A stretch of 61,523 nucleotides of DNA from Candidatus Zixiibacteriota bacterium. Its GTDB lineage: Bacteria; Zixibacteria; MSB-5A5; GN15; FEB-12. Shown here one piece after another: positions 4,403-61,523 of this stretch (positions are counted from its first letter, which is position 1; every line of letters starts with the position of its first letter). The stretch is from the NCBI GenBank assembly GCA_024280215.1, contig JAJRQO010000041.1:1-61523 (forward strand). The letters run 5' to 3'. The translations under genes and the position numbers were made by a program. The notes under the pieces were generated by a model, which worked only from the letters and a program-made list of their open reading frames with translations, had not been told where the DNA came from and did no database searches.

Positions 4403-5767
4403 ATGAATGAAAAAAAAACGCTTTCAAATCAAAAGTATGATAAAGTGCGGGCTGCTTGTGTCAAGGCACTGGTACTGCTTGAACAGGGAGAGTCTCTCGA
4501 TAAAGCAATCTCTCTTGCGATCGATGACCAAGAGTTCAGACCAATTGACAAACGATTTTTCCAACAACTGGTGCATGGGACAATTAAAATGCGTCGTCGT
4601 CTTGATCATGAAATAAAATTCTACCTCGCAAAACCTTCGACCGAACTTCCTCTTAAACTGAAAAATATTTTACGGCTTGGTTTTTATCAACTGCATTTTA
4701 CTGACCGAATTCCCGATGCGGCAGCGGTCTCTGAATCGGTCAACTTAGCACACGTTATGACCGATGCTGGAAAAGCAAAACTTGTCAACGCTGTCATGCG
4801 TTCTGCGATTAGAGAACCTGAAAAAGTTGTCTTCGCTAAAAAAGAAAAAGAGCCTGTCAGATATCTTGGCGATTTTTATTCATACCCTGACCATTTTGTT
4901 GAGTATTGTCTTGAAGAGTTTGGGTTTCTTGCCACGAAAAATTTACTTATCTATTACAATGAAGCACCAAAAGTTACTTACCGTGTTAATTTTCTGAAAG
5001 CAAAACCAGATGAAGTCGCTCACATGCTGACTGAAAACAAAGTTGAGTTTTCGTTTGGAAAATATCTACCTGAATTTTTACGTATCGAAAGCGGGGGACT
5101 TCCGCTTGAGCTTGAACTTATCTCAACAGGTAAAGTCTACGTGCAGGATGAAGCCTCTGGTTTGGCTGTGCGCCTGATGAACCCTCGCCCGGGAAATTCA
5201 GTTATAGATTTAGCCGCCGCTCCAGGTGGTAAAAGTACCTATGCAGCAATTAGGATGCGTAACAAAGGACGAGTCACGGCAGTTGATAAAACTCAAGAAC
5301 GGCTCGAGGTCTTAGTCGGTAATGCAGAACGTCTCGGGGTTAAAATTATTTCGCCTGTCATTTCCGATATGTATGATTTCAAGGGTGGACCATTTGACCG
5401 TGTTCTTTTAGATCCGCCATGTTCAGGATGGGGAGCTGCTGGCAAACACTCAGATTTGCGTTGGGCAAAATCTACTGAGGATGTCACCAAACTTGCCAAG
5501 ATTCAGCAATCAATGATTGGACGGGCATCAAAATTAGTCAAACCTGGTGGAGTTTTGATCTATTCGACCTGTACTATTATTAGGGCAGAAAATGATAAAA
5601 TTGTCGAAGATTTTTTAGCGAAGCATAAAGATTGCGAAATAGAATCTGCCAAAGAGTTTTTCCCAGATGAGTTAGTCTCTGAAAAAGGGTATGTCAAGAC
5701 TTATCCATCGGTAGGGAAATATGATGGGGCATTTTGTGTACGACTTAAGCGTAAAGAGCATGCCTAA
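4403..5767 (+). CDS. rsmB: 16S rRNA (cytosine-967 C5)-methyltransferase
   Basis: 454 residues with the full RsmB layout. An N-terminal NusB-like RNA-binding domain (about 10-150) is followed by a Rossmann SAM-dependent methyltransferase. The SAM loop DLAAAPGGKS is at 269-278. The two RNA m5C-methyltransferase cysteines are visible: C340 in DPPCSG and C390 in YSTCT, the latter expected to be the nucleophile. It methylates C967 of 16S rRNA using SAM. It sits 3 bases after the radical SAM gene in the same operon. The N-terminal NusB-like domain favours RsmB over its paralogue RsmF. Confidence 0.92.
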   Translation: MNEKKTLSNQKYDKVRAACVKALVLLEQGESLDKAISLAIDDQEFRPIDKRFFQQLVHGTIKMRRRLDHEIKFYLAKPSTELPLKLKNILRLGFYQLHFTDRIPDAAAVSESVNLAHVMTDAGKAKLVNAVMRSAIREPEKVVFAKKEKEPVRYLGDFYSYPDHFVEYCLEEFGFLATKNLLIYYNEAPKVTYRVNFLKAKPDEVAHMLTENKVEFSFGKYLPEFLRIESGGLPLELELISTGKVYVQDEASGLAVRLMNPRPGNSVIDLAAAPGGKSTYAAIRMRNKGRVTAVDKTQERLEVLVGNAERLGVKIISPVISDMYDFKGGPFDRVLLDPPCSGWGAAGKHSDLRWAKSTEDVTKLAKIQQSMIGRASKLVKPGGVLIYSTCTIIRAENDKIVEDFLAKHKDCEIESAKEFFPDELVSEKGYVKTYPSVGKYDGAFCVRLKRKEHA

Positions 5768-5861
5768 TATTTTATATTAAAACTTGCCTTTTTATCATTT
5801 TTTTTTCACTCTTATGTGTAAGATAAATACAAATATATCACACAACGCATAATGGTGAAAA

Positions 5862-9882: not shown

Positions 9883-9972
9883 TCCAGTGCAATAACCCTT
9901 TAGGCAACTTAATTATATCAACAGAAAATTATAGTGACAGACCCTGTCAGTCTCATCACTTATACTTTGTCC

Positions 9973-10260
9973 ATGACACAACAATACTACATTTATATAT
10001 TAGCAAGTAAACGAAATGGAACTCTTTATATAGGTAGTACTTCAGATTTAAAACAAAGAGTCTATCTACATAAAAATAAATTGATAGATGGGTTTACTAA
10101 AAAGTACAATGTTACAATGCTTGTGTATTTTGAAATCACCGATTCAAGAGTTTCTGCTATTCACAGAGAGAAGCAATTAAGAAAATGGAAACGTGATTGG
10201 AAACTCAGGCTAATAGAAGATGAAAACCCTCATTGGGGGGATTTGTATGATAAATTATAA
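9973..10260 (+). CDS. GIY-YIG nuclease-fold protein (UPF0213/YhbQ-like)
   Basis: 95 residues from the ATG at 9973; an in-frame upstream ATG at 9934 adds only 13 residues outside the domain. The single GIY-YIG domain shows the YIY (6-8) and YIG (19-21) core, an Arg at 29 in 'SDLKQRVYLHK', and a probable metal-binding Glu at 66 in 'HREKQLRKW'. Small stand-alone GIY-YIG proteins are common in this size range and their substrate is generally unknown. The gene is a single unit between CCTGC palindromes on both sides (9865-9882 and 10270-10287), which may mean it travels or is retained with repeats. Confidence 0.9.
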   Translation: MTQQYYIYILASKRNGTLYIGSTSDLKQRVYLHKNKLIDGFTKKYNVTMLVYFEITDSRVSAIHREKQLRKWKRDWKLRLIEDENPHWGDLYDKL

Positions 10261-10269
10261 GTGACTGGA

Positions 10270-10287
10270 TTCCTGCCTCCGCAGGAA
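10270..10287. repeat. TTCCTGC-cctc-GCAGGAA palindromic repeat
   Basis: The fourth copy of the dispersed palindrome, in opposite orientation to the copies before the GIY-YIG gene. It is preceded by CTGGA, the complement of the TCCAG that follows the other copies. Confidence 0.7.
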
Positions 10288-10324
10288 AGGAGAGGGGGAA
10301 GTTTGTGAAGTTAATACAGTATAA

Positions 10325-10909
10325 TTATTTTTTGGTTTGTTCTTTCAAGATATTAATATAAATAAAATTACCTGTCCATATAAATAATGTTGATAAATCA
10401 ATCATTAAAGATTCAAACTCCATTTTTATAAATGGAAACATTTTTGTTTTTGAAATTCTTTCAAATCTCTCAGCATTTTCAATATCTGAATGGAAAATAT
10501 ACCCATTAAACCAAAAATCAATTACATCTGCAGGTGATAAAATTTTATTCCCATATTGCAATTTCATATAAGTTTTCGACATTAATTTCTTAAATGCTAT
10601 TGAAGTAGATTTTGCATTGTCAAATAGTTCTTTGTCAGATTCTAAAGCTTTTCTTATTATTTTAAATATTTTATTAAAATATAAAGTTTCGTTATTCATG
10701 CAAAATTGTCTAATGGTTGTTGTCAAAGATTTTAACGCTTCTTTTTCTGGACCATCAATAGTGATAGTACCGCCTTTATTTACTTCAAAATGTAATTTAA
10801 GCGAAACTTGTAGTTTACCACCTTGTAATATTGAAGAATTTTTAAGCTCTAAAGACCTTTTATAAAATAAATTTAAAATTCTTAAATCTTTTTCATCAAG
10901 TTGTTCCAT
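10325..10909 (-). CDS. Hypothetical protein, 194 residues
   Basis: The start at 10909 has a strong GGGGAG ribosome site 7 bases upstream. No signal peptide or clear membrane helix; lysine-rich, mixed alpha/beta by eye, very AT-rich compared with its neighbours. The middle 'VNKGGTITIDGPEKEALKSL' looks like a beta-strand/helix unit. I do not recognise a family. It is a single gene on the minus strand between the GIY-YIG gene and the TolB-like lipoprotein, i.e. in the repeat-rich part of the window, so a recently acquired or accessory gene is plausible. Confidence 0.7.
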   Translation of the reverse strand: MEQLDEKDLRILNLFYKRSLELKNSSILQGGKLQVSLKLHFEVNKGGTITIDGPEKEALKSLTTTIRQFCMNNETLYFNKIFKIIRKALESDKELFDNAKSTSIAFKKLMSKTYMKLQYGNKILSPADVIDFWFNGYIFHSDIENAERFERISKTKMFPFIKMEFESLMIDLSTLFIWTGNFIYINILKEQTKK

Positions 10910-54516: not shown

Positions 54517-54940
54517 AATTAAAAAACTTTCGATTGATAATTATGATGACATTATTCGCATATGGGCTATTGCTGGGCTTCCCTATAAACCGAAGGGGAG
54601 AGACTCAAAAGAGATGATGTCAAGAGAGATGCAGTTTGCTGGTTGTTGTTACTTTGGATTGTTTGATGAAGGACAGTCTGTCGGTACTGCTATTGCTAAC
54701 TATGATGGTCGTCGGGGATGGATTAATAGAGTTGCGATTGATCCTGACTATCGTAAAAAAGGGTATGCGGGGCTTTTAATAGATACCTGTCAACAATTTT
54801 TGGAGTCGCTTGGTGCAGTTGTGATGTGTGCATTGATTGAAGATATAAATTATCCCTCAATTACAACATTTAATAAAGCGGGCTTTACTGCAGAAAAACA
54901 ATATTTATATTTTGTCAAACGTCAATCAGATGATGCTTGA
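54506..54940 (+). CDS. GNAT-family N-acetyltransferase
   Basis: 144 residues, single GNAT fold. The acetyl-CoA-binding motif is R-K-K-G-Y-A (83-88) in 'VAIDPDYRKKGYAGLLID'. Downstream helices follow the expected pattern ('TCQQFLESLGAVVMCALI'). The substrate is unknown. Probably co-transcribed with the DUF116 gene; its last 19 bases overlap larC on the other strand. Confidence 0.9.
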   Translation: MASEIKKLSIDNYDDIIRIWAIAGLPYKPKGRDSKEMMSREMQFAGCCYFGLFDEGQSVGTAIANYDGRRGWINRVAIDPDYRKKGYAGLLIDTCQQFLESLGAVVMCALIEDINYPSITTFNKAGFTAEKQYLYFVKRQSDDA

Positions 54941-56100
54941 TGTTTTGCTTCATCAATAATTTTGATTAACGCAATATTGTTTTTACGTGCTATCTTTTTA
55001 CAATCTTCATACTCTGGGTTAATTTGTACTGGTTTACCATCGTGAGTTGAAAACTTTACCGACACCGTACCATATTTTGTCTCAACCATCTTTTGTTTTC
55101 TGGCAAGTTTGACTCTTTGAATTTTTTGTACACGAAGACCAATCGTAGTTGTCTCAGAGAATATTTTCTCGATTGCTTTGTCTTTCAAATCATGCTCAAC
55201 AAGTACAGTTAGTATCACAGCGGGACGTTGTTTTTTCATCAGCGTCTGAGTCAATGTAATATCCAAAACACCAATTTCAAAAAGTTCATTAGATAAGTAT
55301 TCGAACAGTTGCGGATTCATATCATCGATGTTTGTTTCGATTTGCGTAATCTCATCGGTATCATACTGAGAACTTTGAGCTTCGTTTGTTTCTCCAATGA
55401 GAATTCGTAACATATTCGGAATATCTAAATCTCTCGTGCCACATCCATAACCAGTAGATTCAACTTGCATGTCAGGCATCTCACCAAATGATGTCGCCAT
55501 AGTTTTTAAAATTGCGGCACCTGTTGGGGTGGTAAGTTCTTTTTCGATACCTGTGCAAAACGTACGAATACCCTTGAGAAGTTCCATCGTCGCTGGGGCG
55601 GGGAGAGGCATGGTTCCGTGAGCACATTTAATGAAACCCGACCCGACATGGATTTTTGAGACAACAAAGTTTTCAATTTGTAGAAATTCAAAACAGATCA
55701 TCGCTCCGACAATATCAACTATCGCATCCAAAGCGCCTACTTCATGAAAATGTATTTTATCTTTTGTTGTGCTATGAATCTTCGCTTCGGCTTCCGCTAA
55801 GTTATGAAAAACTTTTGTAGCGTTCTCTTTTACAAATGAAGAGAGGGAAGAGTTTTCAATAATTTTTTCAATAACAGGAAGTGTTCGATGGTGATGTTGT
55901 TCTTCAGTTGCCACAATGACATGGGTACCACCGATATTATGCTTTGACATTTTTTGGGCGGTGACTACAAAACCTTCAAGGTGCAACTTTTGAAGCTCTT
56001 GTTTGAGAGTTTCAATCGGAACGCCCGCATCAATACACGCTCCCAAAATCATATCACCACTCACTCCAGCAAAACAGTCAAAATATAAAGTTTTCAACAA
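54922..56100 (-). CDS. larC: Nickel-pincer cofactor biosynthesis protein LarC (nickel insertion)
   Basis: 392 residues in one unbroken frame (in Lactobacillus larC is split by a programmed frameshift). The N-terminus 'LYFDCFAGVSGDMILGACID' and the His-rich 'HHHRTLP' region, plus 'KIHFHEVGALDAIVDIVGA', are LarC features. LarC uses CTP to insert nickel into the pyridinium bis-thiocarboxylic acid cofactor. It overlaps larB by 7 bases. Part of the larE-larB-larC unit. Confidence 0.93.
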   Translation of the reverse strand: MLKTLYFDCFAGVSGDMILGACIDAGVPIETLKQELQKLHLEGFVVTAQKMSKHNIGGTHVIVATEEQHHHRTLPVIEKIIENSSLSSFVKENATKVFHNLAEAEAKIHSTTKDKIHFHEVGALDAIVDIVGAMICFEFLQIENFVVSKIHVGSGFIKCAHGTMPLPAPATMELLKGIRTFCTGIEKELTTPTGAAILKTMATSFGEMPDMQVESTGYGCGTRDLDIPNMLRILIGETNEAQSSQYDTDEITQIETNIDDMNPQLFEYLSNELFEIGVLDITLTQTLMKKQRPAVILTVLVEHDLKDKAIEKIFSETTTIGLRVQKIQRVKLARKQKMVETKYGTVSVKFSTHDGKPVQINPEYEDCKKIARKNNIALIKIIDEAKHQASSD

Positions 56101-56852
56101 TGTACTCCTTGTAAGTTTATTACCGACGCCATGTAGCCTGCACCAAAACCATTGTCGATGTTAACAACCGCAATTCCAGGGGCGCAACTGTTGAGCATTG
56201 CCAAAAGGGCAGAGAGTCCTTCAAACGATGCACCATACCCGACCGATGTTGGCAGTCCGATAACTGGACATGCCACCAAACCACTGACCACTGATGCTAA
56301 GGCACCTTCCATGCCAGCGGCAGCGATAATAACATTAGAGTCATCTAAAATGTTTTTGTTATCAAGCATACGGTGAATCCCCGCTACGCCGATGTCATAG
56401 AGTCTGATAACTTTGTTGCCCATTGTCTCGGCGGTAATCGCTGCTTCTTCGGCGTATGGAATATCGGATGTGCCGCCTGTTATCACAGTAATAATCTTGT
56501 CTGTTTTCGAAGGTGGTGTTTTGCCGAGCTGTATGATTCGTGCTTTTTTATGAAACTGTGCATTTGGAAAGTTTTTTACGACGCTATCAAAATTTTCCTG
56601 TGTAGCGAGAGTCCCGATAATTAGGTCATTTGAATTTATCAGTGATTGGAAAATTGCTACAATCTGTTCGTTCGTCTTCCCTTTACAAAATATTACTTCT
56701 GGGAAACCATTACGTATTGAGCGGTGGGTGTCAAGTTTGGCAAAGCCGATATCTTCATACGGAAAATTTTTCAACTTGTTCATAGCATCATCGATAGAGA
56801 TGTTACCATCTTGAATTTGTTTGAGTATCTTTTTGAGTGTGTCGCTTTGCAT
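56094..56852 (-). CDS. larB: Nickel-pincer cofactor biosynthesis protein LarB (NaAD carboxylase/hydrolase)
   Basis: 252 residues with a C-terminal PurE-like (AIR carboxylase) domain from about 115 ('TVITGGTSDIPYAEEAA', 'GMEGALASVVSGLVACPVIGLPTSVGYGAS'). The Cys at 223 in 'NSCAPG' is expected to form the covalent adduct with nicotinic acid adenine dinucleotide. It carboxylates NaAD and releases AMP, the first step of nickel-pincer synthesis. Confidence 0.93.
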   Translation of the reverse strand: MQSDTLKKILKQIQDGNISIDDAMNKLKNFPYEDIGFAKLDTHRSIRNGFPEVIFCKGKTNEQIVAIFQSLINSNDLIIGTLATQENFDSVVKNFPNAQFHKKARIIQLGKTPPSKTDKIITVITGGTSDIPYAEEAAITAETMGNKVIRLYDIGVAGIHRMLDNKNILDDSNVIIAAAGMEGALASVVSGLVACPVIGLPTSVGYGASFEGLSALLAMLNSCAPGIAVVNIDNGFGAGYMASVINLQGVHC

Positions 56853-56873
56853 CTGTATCTATTTCTATTTATT

Positions 56874-56917
56874 AAGACTTCGTCTTATTTAAGACTTCGT
56901 CATATTTATGACTTCGT
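56874..56917. repeat. Short tandem repeat at the 3' end of larE
   Basis: AGACTTCGTC occurs twice (56875 region and 56891 region) and a third, changed copy ATGACTTCGT follows, with a period of about 16-18 bases. It covers the last codons and stop of larE and the gap before larB. Confidence 0.6.
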
Positions 56918-57728
56918 TGAGTGAACCAGAACGGAACCCTTTGGTGTCGAGTGAAACATATTTATAACCCAAAGATTTTATTTTATTGGTTACCGCTTCA
57001 TTTTTATCTGTTTTTAAAAATAGTTCAAAATTTTCTTTTGGAATTTCTATTCGGGCGATTTGGTCGTGATCACGAACCCGTACTATTTTTATTCCGATTT
57101 CTTTTATTATGCGTTCGGCTTTATCTACTCGTAATAGTTTTTCAAGAGTGATTTCTGAATTGTATGGAATCCGAGATGACAAACATGGCGAAGCAGCTTT
57201 GTCCCATGTATAAAGATTATATTTTTTAGAAAGAACTCGAATGTCTTCTTTGGTCATTAAACAGTCTTTAAGAGGCGATTCCACACCATGTTCCTGACCA
57301 GCAAGCATACCGGGGCGATAGTCGGTGGTATCGTCAAAATTGGTTCCATCAATGACGGTTGTAATTTTATGTTCAGCACCAATTTTTTTTAGTCGTGAGA
57401 AAAGACCAGACTTACAATGGTAACAACGGTTTGATGGGTTGGCGACAAAATTTGGGTTTTCGAGTTCATTGGTGTCGATGATGACATGTTCTACATTTAG
57501 TTCAAGGGCGAGCTTGGCACCAAGTTCGATTTCATCTTTTGGGCTAACTGAAGATTTTGATGAAACTGCTAACACTTTGCCAGGGGCAAAATCTACTGCT
57601 AAGCGTAGCAGGAGCGTCGAATCAACACCACCTGAAAATGCGACTACAACAGATTTACGTTCGACAAAATATTGTTTGATTGCTTCAAGTTTGTCTTCGA
57701 GTGTTTCTAACTGTTTTATATTTTGCAT
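56889..57728 (-). CDS. larE: Nickel-pincer cofactor biosynthesis sulfur transferase LarE (three-cysteine type)
   Basis: 279 residues. PP-loop ATPase motif SGGVDS (32-37). Cysteines C102 and C105 (RCYHCK) and C182 (ASPCLSSR) are present. In L. plantarum LarE a single cysteine donates its own sulfur; LarE proteins with three cysteines have been reported to carry a [4Fe-4S] cluster that donates sulfur catalytically. This one has the latter pattern, an inference. First gene of the lar operon, no ribosome site, TATA-like tract before the ATG. Confidence 0.92.
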   Translation of the reverse strand: MQNIKQLETLEDKLEAIKQYFVERKSVVVAFSGGVDSTLLLRLAVDFAPGKVLAVSSKSSVSPKDEIELGAKLALELNVEHVIIDTNELENPNFVANPSNRCYHCKSGLFSRLKKIGAEHKITTVIDGTNFDDTTDYRPGMLAGQEHGVESPLKDCLMTKEDIRVLSKKYNLYTWDKAASPCLSSRIPYNSEITLEKLLRVDKAERIIKEIGIKIVRVRDHDQIARIEIPKENFELFLKTDKNEAVTNKIKSLGYKYVSLDTKGFRSGSLNEVINMTKS

Positions 57729-59734: not shown

Positions 59735-59753
59735 TAGCAACCTTCATGCCAAA
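59735..59753 (-). promoter_or_regulatory. Sigma-54 promoter of the Met-rich gene
   Basis: On the minus strand TTGGCATG-AAGG-TTGCT matches the consensus YTGGCACG-n4-TTGCW in all but one position (C to T). GG (59749-59750) and GC (59737-59738) are 10 bases apart. Transcription would start about 59725, 29 bases before the ATG. Confidence 0.7.
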
Positions 59754-59830
59754 TGCGACTATCTTGTTGTATCCTAAAGTCGTACTTCACTTTACACCAT
59801 ATTAGTAAATTATATCGCACACTTTACGTT

Positions 59831-59854
59831 GAAGAATATCAGAGAATATTCTTC
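59831..59854. promoter_or_regulatory. Inverted repeat upstream of the sigma-54 promoter
   Basis: GAAGAATAT/ATATTCTTC with a 6-base centre, centred about 100 bases upstream of the -12/-24 element. The position is typical for a bacterial enhancer-binding protein site. Confidence 0.5.
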
Positions 59855-59905
59855 AAAAGTATTGAATTTTCCTTGATTGATGATAAAGAATCATAATTAA
59901 TGTCG

Positions 59906-59934
59906 AACCCCTATCTAATGTTTAGATAGGGGTT
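59906..59934. other. Perfect 13-bp hairpin between the P-II and Met-rich genes
   Basis: AACCCCTATCTAA/TTAGATAGGGGTT with a 3-base loop, no T-run on either side. Possible transcript end for the P-II gene or a protein-binding site. A smaller 7-bp palindrome TTACAAT-gct-ATTGTAA lies at 59986-60002. Confidence 0.6.
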
Positions 59935-60015
59935 GAAGGGGGAGTTATGAAGGTTGTGAAATTTGAAAATTAACTATTTTGAATATTACAATGCTATTGT
60001 AACGTTTTACTGTTT

Positions 60016-60390
60016 TTATTCATTTTTTTCATTAGAAGATGGGCAATGTGAGTCTAATGTGATGACACCTTCTTTACCGGTTCGAATCTTTATTGTATGT
60101 TCTACTTGCGATATGAAGATTGCTCCATCGCCTTTAACGCCAGTTTTAGCATGTTGCTTTATTGTATCAACTATTAATTCAACGTCTTCCTTGCGACAGA
60201 CAATTTCTAATTTAGAAACCATTGAATGATCAGAAACACGTTCTAAATCAAGTTCACTTGCTTGAGGGTTTTCAAATGTTCCTATTCTTTCAACTGGAAT
60301 TATCGACATTACTTTCACACCAACATCTTTAAGTTTATCGACAACCTCATTCATTTTTGATCTTCGAACATAAGCTTTAATTTCTTTCAT
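60016..60390 (-). CDS. Divergent P-II family signalling protein
   Basis: 124 residues from the ATG at 60390, with GAGGA 8 bases upstream; the frame extends to 60408. The P-II core is clear: MKEIKAYVRRSKMNEVVDKL at the start, TGVKGDGAIF (83-92) and RTGKEG (103-108), the nucleotide-binding parts of GlnB. The T-loop lacks the Tyr51 that is uridylylated (Arg there) and the sequence 'RIGTFENPQASELDLERVSDHS' is unlike GlnB/GlnK. The C-terminal tail 'DSHCPSSNEKNE' is an addition. No amtB or glnA neighbour; sigma-54 promoter upstream. Confidence 0.85.
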   Translation of the reverse strand: MKEIKAYVRRSKMNEVVDKLKDVGVKVMSIIPVERIGTFENPQASELDLERVSDHSMVSKLEIVCRKEDVELIVDTIKQHAKTGVKGDGAIFISQVEHTIKIRTGKEGVITLDSHCPSSNEKNE

Positions 60391-60425
60391 AATAAAATCC
60401 TCATACAATATTTACTTGATATAAT

Positions 60426-60441
60426 AGCAACTTCCATGCCG
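60426..60441 (-). promoter_or_regulatory. Sigma-54 promoter of the P-II gene
   Basis: On the minus strand CGGCATG-GAAG-TTGCT: GG (60439-60440) and GC (60427-60428) are 10 bases apart, TTGCT exact, and only the base before GG differs from TGGCA. Transcription would start near 60415, 25 bases before the ATG. Confidence 0.65.
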
Positions 60442-60890
60442 ATTGCTTAGGTATGGCGGATTTTGATAGCCAAGTCTTATTTGTTCATCACATTAGCTAT
60501 GTTATTTGTTTTATTTATAAAATAAATATTTTACAAAGAGTGAAGAAAATTAAAGACTATTATACAAAATTGTTTAAAATTATTCATAATATCATCAAAG
60601 TCTATATCAGTCTATTTTTTTCTGTTATCGAATTCTTGTTGATGTTACTATGAGTGAAAAGCTATACATGTTAAGCAACTACCTTAGCTGTTTCTATAAG
60701 TAGATGATTTTATCTGGAACAATATTTGAAAGTTCTAATTTTATAGAAATTAAAATGGAGAGTAATTATAGCAGAGTAGCCAACCCTTGGGGTTGGTTTC
60801 TATTCAAAATTTAATTTAATTATATTTCTCACATTATTTTATTAACAATTCATAGACAATATTATCAAAGTAAAAGAGGAATTATAAATA

Positions 60891-61048
60891 CACACCAAGG
60901 GGCTTGTTGAAAAAGTCCAGCTTGTCTTTCAAGACCCTTCGACTCCGCTCAGGGTGACTTGAAAGACAACAGCTTATAATTTGTCATACTGAGCGGAGTC
61001 GAAGTATGTTCCAATATAAGAGGTTTTCAACAGTCCCCAAGGAGTGTG
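60891..61048. mobile_element. MITE-like element, copy 2 (inverted relative to copy 1)
   Basis: The reverse complement of 7182-7344, nearly identical, with the same GGGGCTTGTTGAAAAA ends, the same internal CTTCGACTCCGCTCAG pair, and a CAAGGGG border. The flanking sequence differs from copy 1 just outside the ends. Confidence 0.8.
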
Positions 61049-61346: not shown

Positions 61347-61387
61347 AAGTGATATAGAGGTTGGGGATAATAATATAAAACTGTTTT

Positions 61388-61523
61388 TGGACTTCCCCCG
61401 CAAAAACGGACACGGAGTTAAGTATGTTTTGTCATCACTTCAAATTGAGCTGGACTTTTGTATCCTAAGCTCGAATGACGACGGTTACGGTTATAAAACA
61501 ATTCAATATACTCAAATATCTTA
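61388..61523 (-). mobile_element. IS3-family insertion sequence, one end (rest beyond window)
   Basis: Begins at 61388 with TGGACTTCCCCCGCAAAAAC, a typical IS3-family terminal inverted repeat, and contains the end of the transposase gene. The other end and the target duplication lie outside the window. Confidence 0.85.
61418..61523 (-). CDS. IS3-family transposase, C-terminal fragment (5' part beyond window)
   Basis: 34 residues visible before the stop at 61418. They contain '[19 protein letters not shown]', the C-terminal hallmark of the IS3 OrfB integrase (DDE type), whose last catalytic Glu would lie upstream. The gene runs off the right edge, so its intactness cannot be judged. Confidence 0.9.

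Follow-up and report, generated by a model that had tools for sequence, protein, structure and literature searches.

Within the window analysed here (the whole stretch of DNA, 61,523 nucleotides), two genes on the minus strand, one for a methionine-rich (Met-rich) secreted protein and one for a stand-alone P-II protein, each lie behind a putative sigma-54 promoter. The original prediction took the two genes to be co-regulated, and the locus thus raises the question of which activator would control both, and in response to which signal. The window comprises all of contig 5 of its source genome (G000), an assembly of 3.03 Mb in 42 contigs with an estimated completeness of 96%. Judging from sequence, we consider it likely that the two genes, each transcribed on its own, belong to a single small sigma-54 regulon for metal stress, run by a kinase-activator pair of the type encoded on contig 36 (C36). 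The regulon probably serves metal defence, most likely against copper, rather than nitrogen control. The features of the region are collected in Table 1.

Table 1. Predicted genes and control elements of the Met-rich and P-II region, in window coordinates.
Feature	Position	Strand	Detail
Met-rich secreted protein, 155 aa	59229..59696	-	ORF; orthologs in four relatives
Sigma-54 promoter of Met-rich gene, TGGCATGAAGGTTGCT	59736..59751	-	conserved in G003, G031, G008, G007
Predicted activator site TGAAGAATATTCTCTGAT, core GAATATTC 101 bp upstream of Met-rich promoter GG	59838..59855	-	score 20.1, p=0.002
Terminator-like inverted repeat AACCCCTATCTAA-ACA-TTAGATAGGGGTT, in the gap between P-II gene and Met-rich promoter	59906..59934	-	read from sequence; kept in G003
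Stand-alone P-II protein, PII-NG-like, 124 aa	60016..60390	-	PF00543, E 1.5e-16
Sigma-54 promoter of P-II gene, CGGCATGGAAGTTGCT	60426..60441	-	conserved in relatives
Predicted activator site TGTATAATAGTCTTTAAT, core 122 bp upstream of P-II promoter GG	60549..60566	-	score 16.4, p=0.006
Weaker second site copy TGAATAATTTTAAACAAT, 142 bp upstream, 20 bp from first	60569..60586	-	score 12.1

Exact matches to GGCAYRNNNNTTGCW occur only twice in the 61.5 kb window. Both are on the minus strand with GG-N10-GC spacing, and in both this core is set within a TGGCAY-N5-TTGCW context. The prediction of two correctly spaced sigma-54 promoters on the same strand therefore stands, with its measurements revised: the string common to both, AGCAAC.T.CATGCC.A.TGC, spans 21 bases and not 26, and the gap from promoter end to ATG is 39 bases for the Met-rich gene and 35 bases for the P-II gene, instead of the 25-29 bases first given. 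A loose scan allowing 3 mismatches returned 298 window matches and was uninformative. Shuffled windows are expected to hold 0.30 exact matches each, and two or more were reached in 5 of 100 shuffles; the match count by itself is modest evidence. The promoter evidence is strong because of the position of both elements at gene starts, their conservation in relatives and their common upstream site. That both are accidental matches, as the occasional shuffle would allow, is scarcely credible given that they recur at gene starts before orthologs of approximately 40-70% identity and are accompanied by a common, phased operator. The terminator-like inverted repeat between the genes makes it probable that the two promoters give rise to separate transcripts.

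A genome-wide search, proposed earlier as a check, yielded 14 matches to GGCAYRNNNNTTGCW compared with 2 for a reversed control, the majority just 5' of plausible genes. The original prediction had also staked itself on the presence of an rpoN gene and on conservation of the motif. RpoN is encoded in the genome, together with approximately 17 sigma-54 activators, and relatives retain both promoters. Met-rich orthologs in G003, G031, G008 and G007 each possess a sigma-54 promoter. P-II orthologs (72, 61 and 54% identity in G008, G031 and G007, respectively) stand alone, each with its own sigma-54 promoter, in these three genomes and in MAGs L062-L065, some of which are labelled Candidatus Zixiibacteriota or FCB group; the G008 promoter is a variant with GGCAAC in place of GGCAY. 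In G031 and MAG50, the Met-rich and P-II genes are adjacent and are followed by genes for YHS, DUF302 and FAD proteins and for a P-type ATPase carrying YHS and HMBD domains. Multicopper oxidases are encoded nearby in MAG50, G008 and G003.

The sister species G003 keeps the Met-rich gene while the P-II coding region is missing. At L058 ~9970-10340 (G003:C73), the P-II promoter and operator are kept with no P-II coding sequence behind them. This would represent a natural deletion leaving an orphan promoter before the Met-rich gene.

The site upstream of the promoters has the consensus TGnAGAATATTCTTCAAT, with the core GAATATTC or a close variant, and is often doubled at a spacing of 20 bp. It lies about 100-143 bp from the promoter GG in both gene families, relatives included; a conserved upstream activator site is thus present at the ~100-150 bp looked for in sigma-54 systems. 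At the P-II gene it sits in a stretch of approximately 25 bases that is identical in G003. Operator distances are periodic at 10.2-10.35 bp (p 0.0002; p 0.008 with one distance per promoter), and such helical phasing is the expectation for an activator working from one face of the helix. A weight matrix built solely from sites at activator genes and then applied to the Met-rich and P-II promoters found them, relatives included, with p 0.002-0.014, the exception being the P-II promoter of L065, which has no clear operator by this matrix (p 0.098). The same matrix gave no match at nine other sigma-54 promoters of the window's genome. Matching promoters and a common operator, both conserved in relatives, support the co-regulation originally proposed.

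Strict operator matches in G000 number four, among them the Met-rich site and the C36 kinase-activator pair. The others, in C42 within a trmD-like gene and in C24 upstream of a GAF-kinase-like gene beside a purF-like gene, were judged chance or unproven. At the C24 locus (L248 ~4881-5852), an operator-like AAGAATATTCTTTG is followed 165 bp downstream by a sigma-54-like GGCATCTGTTTTGC, before a gene resembling a GAF-HisKA protein, which is a possible further target, or a chance match.

Searching for operator and promoter in combination gave only the Met-rich, P-II and kinase genes in G031, and the two window genes plus one match within a coding region in G000. In G008 and G007, YHS proteins were also recovered, along with some unrelated matches in G007. 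A negative control with the promoter spacer lengthened by one base produced 7 unrelated matches across five genomes, none at Met-rich or P-II promoters.

The kinase gene recovered in G031 belongs to a histidine kinase-NtrC-type activator pair that lies approximately 17 kb from the P-II gene and has the same promoter type and a double operator. The closest G000 counterpart of its activator, the best of 15 activators compared, is encoded on contig 36 (56% identity); G031 and G002 each possess two activator copies, and "counterpart" here denotes best identity and not settled orthology. The C36 regulator (G000:C36:21127-22497) comprises a receiver, an AAA+ domain and a Fis-type HTH, forms one operon with its kinase as in a CorSR-type system, and TGAAGAATATTCTCTATT lies upstream of the pair. 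Of 15 loci with the kinase-activator pair, 14 carry the operator upstream of it, and the remaining locus is truncated where its contig ends. The pair adjoins a CusABC-type (RND) metal-efflux operon in 10 of 14 neighbourhoods, plus G031:C5; efflux members are Pfam-confirmed in L235, L237, L241 and L242 (OEP, YHS, HlyD-HMBD, ACR_tran) and identified by sequence resemblance in the rest. The activator gene of G000 has the operator but neither a sigma-54 promoter nor an efflux operon beside it. Its operator may overlap a sigma-70-type promoter, an arrangement that would suit negative autoregulation. A linked response regulator, the search for which had been suggested at the outset, was located through the common operator and not through the neighbourhood in this genome.

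The sensor region of the kinase is an N-terminal, multi-helix, DUF4118-like membrane domain in which His19, His35, His38 and Cys42 are invariant or nearly so; a domain search gave no HAMP match. Activators of at least 54% identity were found in all five genomes with the Met-rich gene and in 25 of 56 others, and the presence of activators in relatives devoid of the Met-rich gene indicates that the activator's core job is wider.

Many sigma-54 activators are present in G000, and the C36 gene is on a different contig from the window, as might be the case if another activator controlled both promoters. We consider this improbable: the operator of both promoters recurs upstream of the C36 kinase-activator genes and those of relatives, one of only four strict operators in the genome sits at the C36 pair, and the neighbourhoods of the other activators are devoid of the operator-promoter pair. 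An L023 activator with Cys-containing PAS domains was dropped, having no operator-promoter pair in its neighbourhood. In Bacteroidetes/Ignavibacteria, the activators encoded beside PII-NG genes (L085, L076, L110) show no close relationship to the C36 activator. Those of L088 and L109 have in common with it the HTH region IPRHVLxYRMKK, yet a strict operator-promoter pair was not recovered at either locus.

The ATG start of the P-II gene at 60390 is conserved in relatives, with a TTG at 60408 as a possible alternative. The T-loop of the protein is without the YRGxEY motif of the uridylylated tyrosine found in canonical GlnB/GlnK, and the B-loop is without the GDGK lysine, reading GDGA here and GDGA or GDGV across the clade; uridylylation and the usual ATP contact would thus not be expected. 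For at least 22 of the 80 P-II relatives retrieved, the gene immediately 5' is an ORF as long as an RND pump (1040-1115 residues); a sigma-54-like element occurs within 150 bases upstream in only 8 of the 80. The genome encodes just one further P-II protein, approximately 38% identical to that of the window, and its gene is directly 3' of a CusA-type pump gene. With its altered T-loop and with relatives often placed behind pumps, the window protein, which has a P-II domain (PF00543), resembles the PII-NG (metal-pump) group, although here and in its orthologs it stands alone, with no RND metal pump genes adjacent.

Sigma-54 promoters are classical for nitrogen genes, and a P-II family match would suit a nitrogen regulon in which an NtrC-like activator induces a GlnB/GlnK-type P-II protein and its neighbour under nitrogen limitation. 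The original prediction accordingly spoke of a nitrogen-type signal protein. The absence of YRGxEY and of the GDGK lysine, the frequent position of relatives behind RND pumps and the regulator's place beside metal-efflux operons in relatives do not support that description. Moreover, amtB adjoins neither of the genome's two P-II genes. We therefore hold nitrogen control to be very unlikely, and favour a metal regulon. Judging by sequence and neighbours, neither of the two P-II genes of G000 is a canonical GlnB/GlnK. In a Bacteroidetes MAG (L085:3708-7067), a kinase, an NtrC-type activator and a PII-NG gene are arranged in a row behind a CusA-type pump, and a sigma-54-like element precedes the PII-NG gene.

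The Met-rich protein contains 18 Met, 5 His and 4 Cys among approximately 131 mature residues. It has no family in Pfam or NCBIfam, and no ZraP/Spy-type (Metal_resist/Spy) profile in either database matched it. An AlphaFold model consists of a signal helix and a helical hairpin, and is weak (mean pLDDT 55). The hairpin is common to the YHS protein (hhalign probability 88.6%), which suggests that YHS and Met-rich proteins are one metal-related family in two settings. YHS/TRASH-type proteins (MNRCITCGK...CCPLC) with a C-terminal Met-rich-like hairpin were observed at L185:1838-2317, L054:14651-15145 and L055:5041-5514; the hairpin of both protein types is possibly a new domain family. These properties favour the metal-type, Met-rich envelope protein foreseen in the original prediction, with a function that we infer to be metal binding in the periplasm.

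The case is built on the promoters, their conservation, the common operator, its presence at the activator gene and the neighbourhoods; from it we infer binding, activation, the identity of the metal (Cu/Ag) and the roles of both proteins. In the proposed mechanism, the predicted stimulus of the DUF4118-like membrane kinase is envelope metal, with copper or silver the most likely candidates. The kinase would pass a phosphoryl group to the NtrC-type regulator encoded next to it, and this regulator would occupy TGWAGAATATTCTWCAA-type sites, frequently present as two copies 20 bp apart on one helical face, and activate RNA polymerase-sigma54 at the Met-rich and P-II promoters alike. Of the two products, the Met-rich protein would bind metal in the periplasm, and the PII-NG-like protein would work in the cytoplasm as a partner of metal transport or detoxification that responds to a ligand, instead of regulating nitrogen.

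Neighbouring genes are what point to copper or silver as the most likely signal. The same regulon could instead respond to another metal (zinc, cobalt, iron) or to general envelope stress: the substrates of RND pumps of this class include several metals, and in Geobacter the PII-NG protein is induced both by cobalt and when iron is limiting (PMC7726332). We regard this as the less likely signal, if one of appreciable weight, in that the Met-rich protein, the HMBD and YHS domains, the copper-type ATPase and the multicopper oxidases nearby in relatives fit copper or silver best.

Comparison with known systems places the proposed copper- or silver-responsive regulon among sigma-54 metal two-component systems. 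ZraPSR of Escherichia coli exerts sigma-54 two-component control over a small, periplasmic, helical, metal-related protein, and is alike in this respect. However, the Met-rich protein has no Pfam match to the ZraP/Spy type, and the kinase sensor differs. To our knowledge, ZraPSR has no P-II partner. The closest precedent is CorSR of Myxococcus xanthus, a sigma-54 copper two-component system in which, according to the passages cited, a histidine kinase and a sigma-54-dependent NtrC-type regulator act with several sigma-54 promoters and with copper genes including a multicopper oxidase and a P-type ATPase (PMC3707914). Kinase and regulator type, multiple sigma-54 promoters and copper genes are thus features in common. 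Those passages assign CorS a HAMP domain and one transmembrane segment, and describe no P-II partner (PMC3707914), whereas the C36-type kinase is multi-helix, DUF4118-like and without HAMP. The targets here are scattered single genes, a P-II gene included, with a defined palindromic operator in common. New relative to CorSR are the different sensor kinase, the stand-alone P-II within such a regulon and the predicted operator. For the P-II protein, the likeness is to PII-NG, a group of the P-II fold family associated with metal pumps in the part of the literature cited (PMC7726332 citing Sant'Anna 2009) and exemplified by Geobacter GSU2134 next to CzcABC (PMC7726332); a T-loop without the uridylylation tyrosine motif is a further resemblance. 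Known PII-NG genes, as described there, lie in pump operons, while the window P-II gene is free-standing and has a sigma-54 promoter and an operator to itself.

A concrete regulon of kinase, activator, operator and targets is thereby proposed for an uncultured Zixibacteria-like lineage. It suggests that a P-II protein was recruited from nitrogen control to metal defence under its own inducible promoter and outside a pump operon. Being co-regulated with a Met-rich periplasmic protein, this P-II protein also offers a way to test PII-NG function. More speculatively, at somewhat short of even odds, this may be a widespread, undescribed sigma-54 two-component system for metals in the Zixibacteria/FCB lineage that relies on a membrane-embedded His/Cys sensor kinase and brings a stand-alone P-II protein under metal control, together with a Met-rich family, itself new, whose hairpin is also joined to YHS domains; the P-II protein would couple energy or metabolite state to metal export.

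Elsewhere in the window, LarC-like (Ni_insertion), LarB-like (AIRC) and LarE-like genes lie together at 54922-57728, as for the nickel-pincer cofactor pathway. Positions 60898-61037 and 61380-61523 contain a repeat-like segment with inverted ttcgactccgctcag arms and, where the contig ends, an apparent beginning of an insertion sequence.
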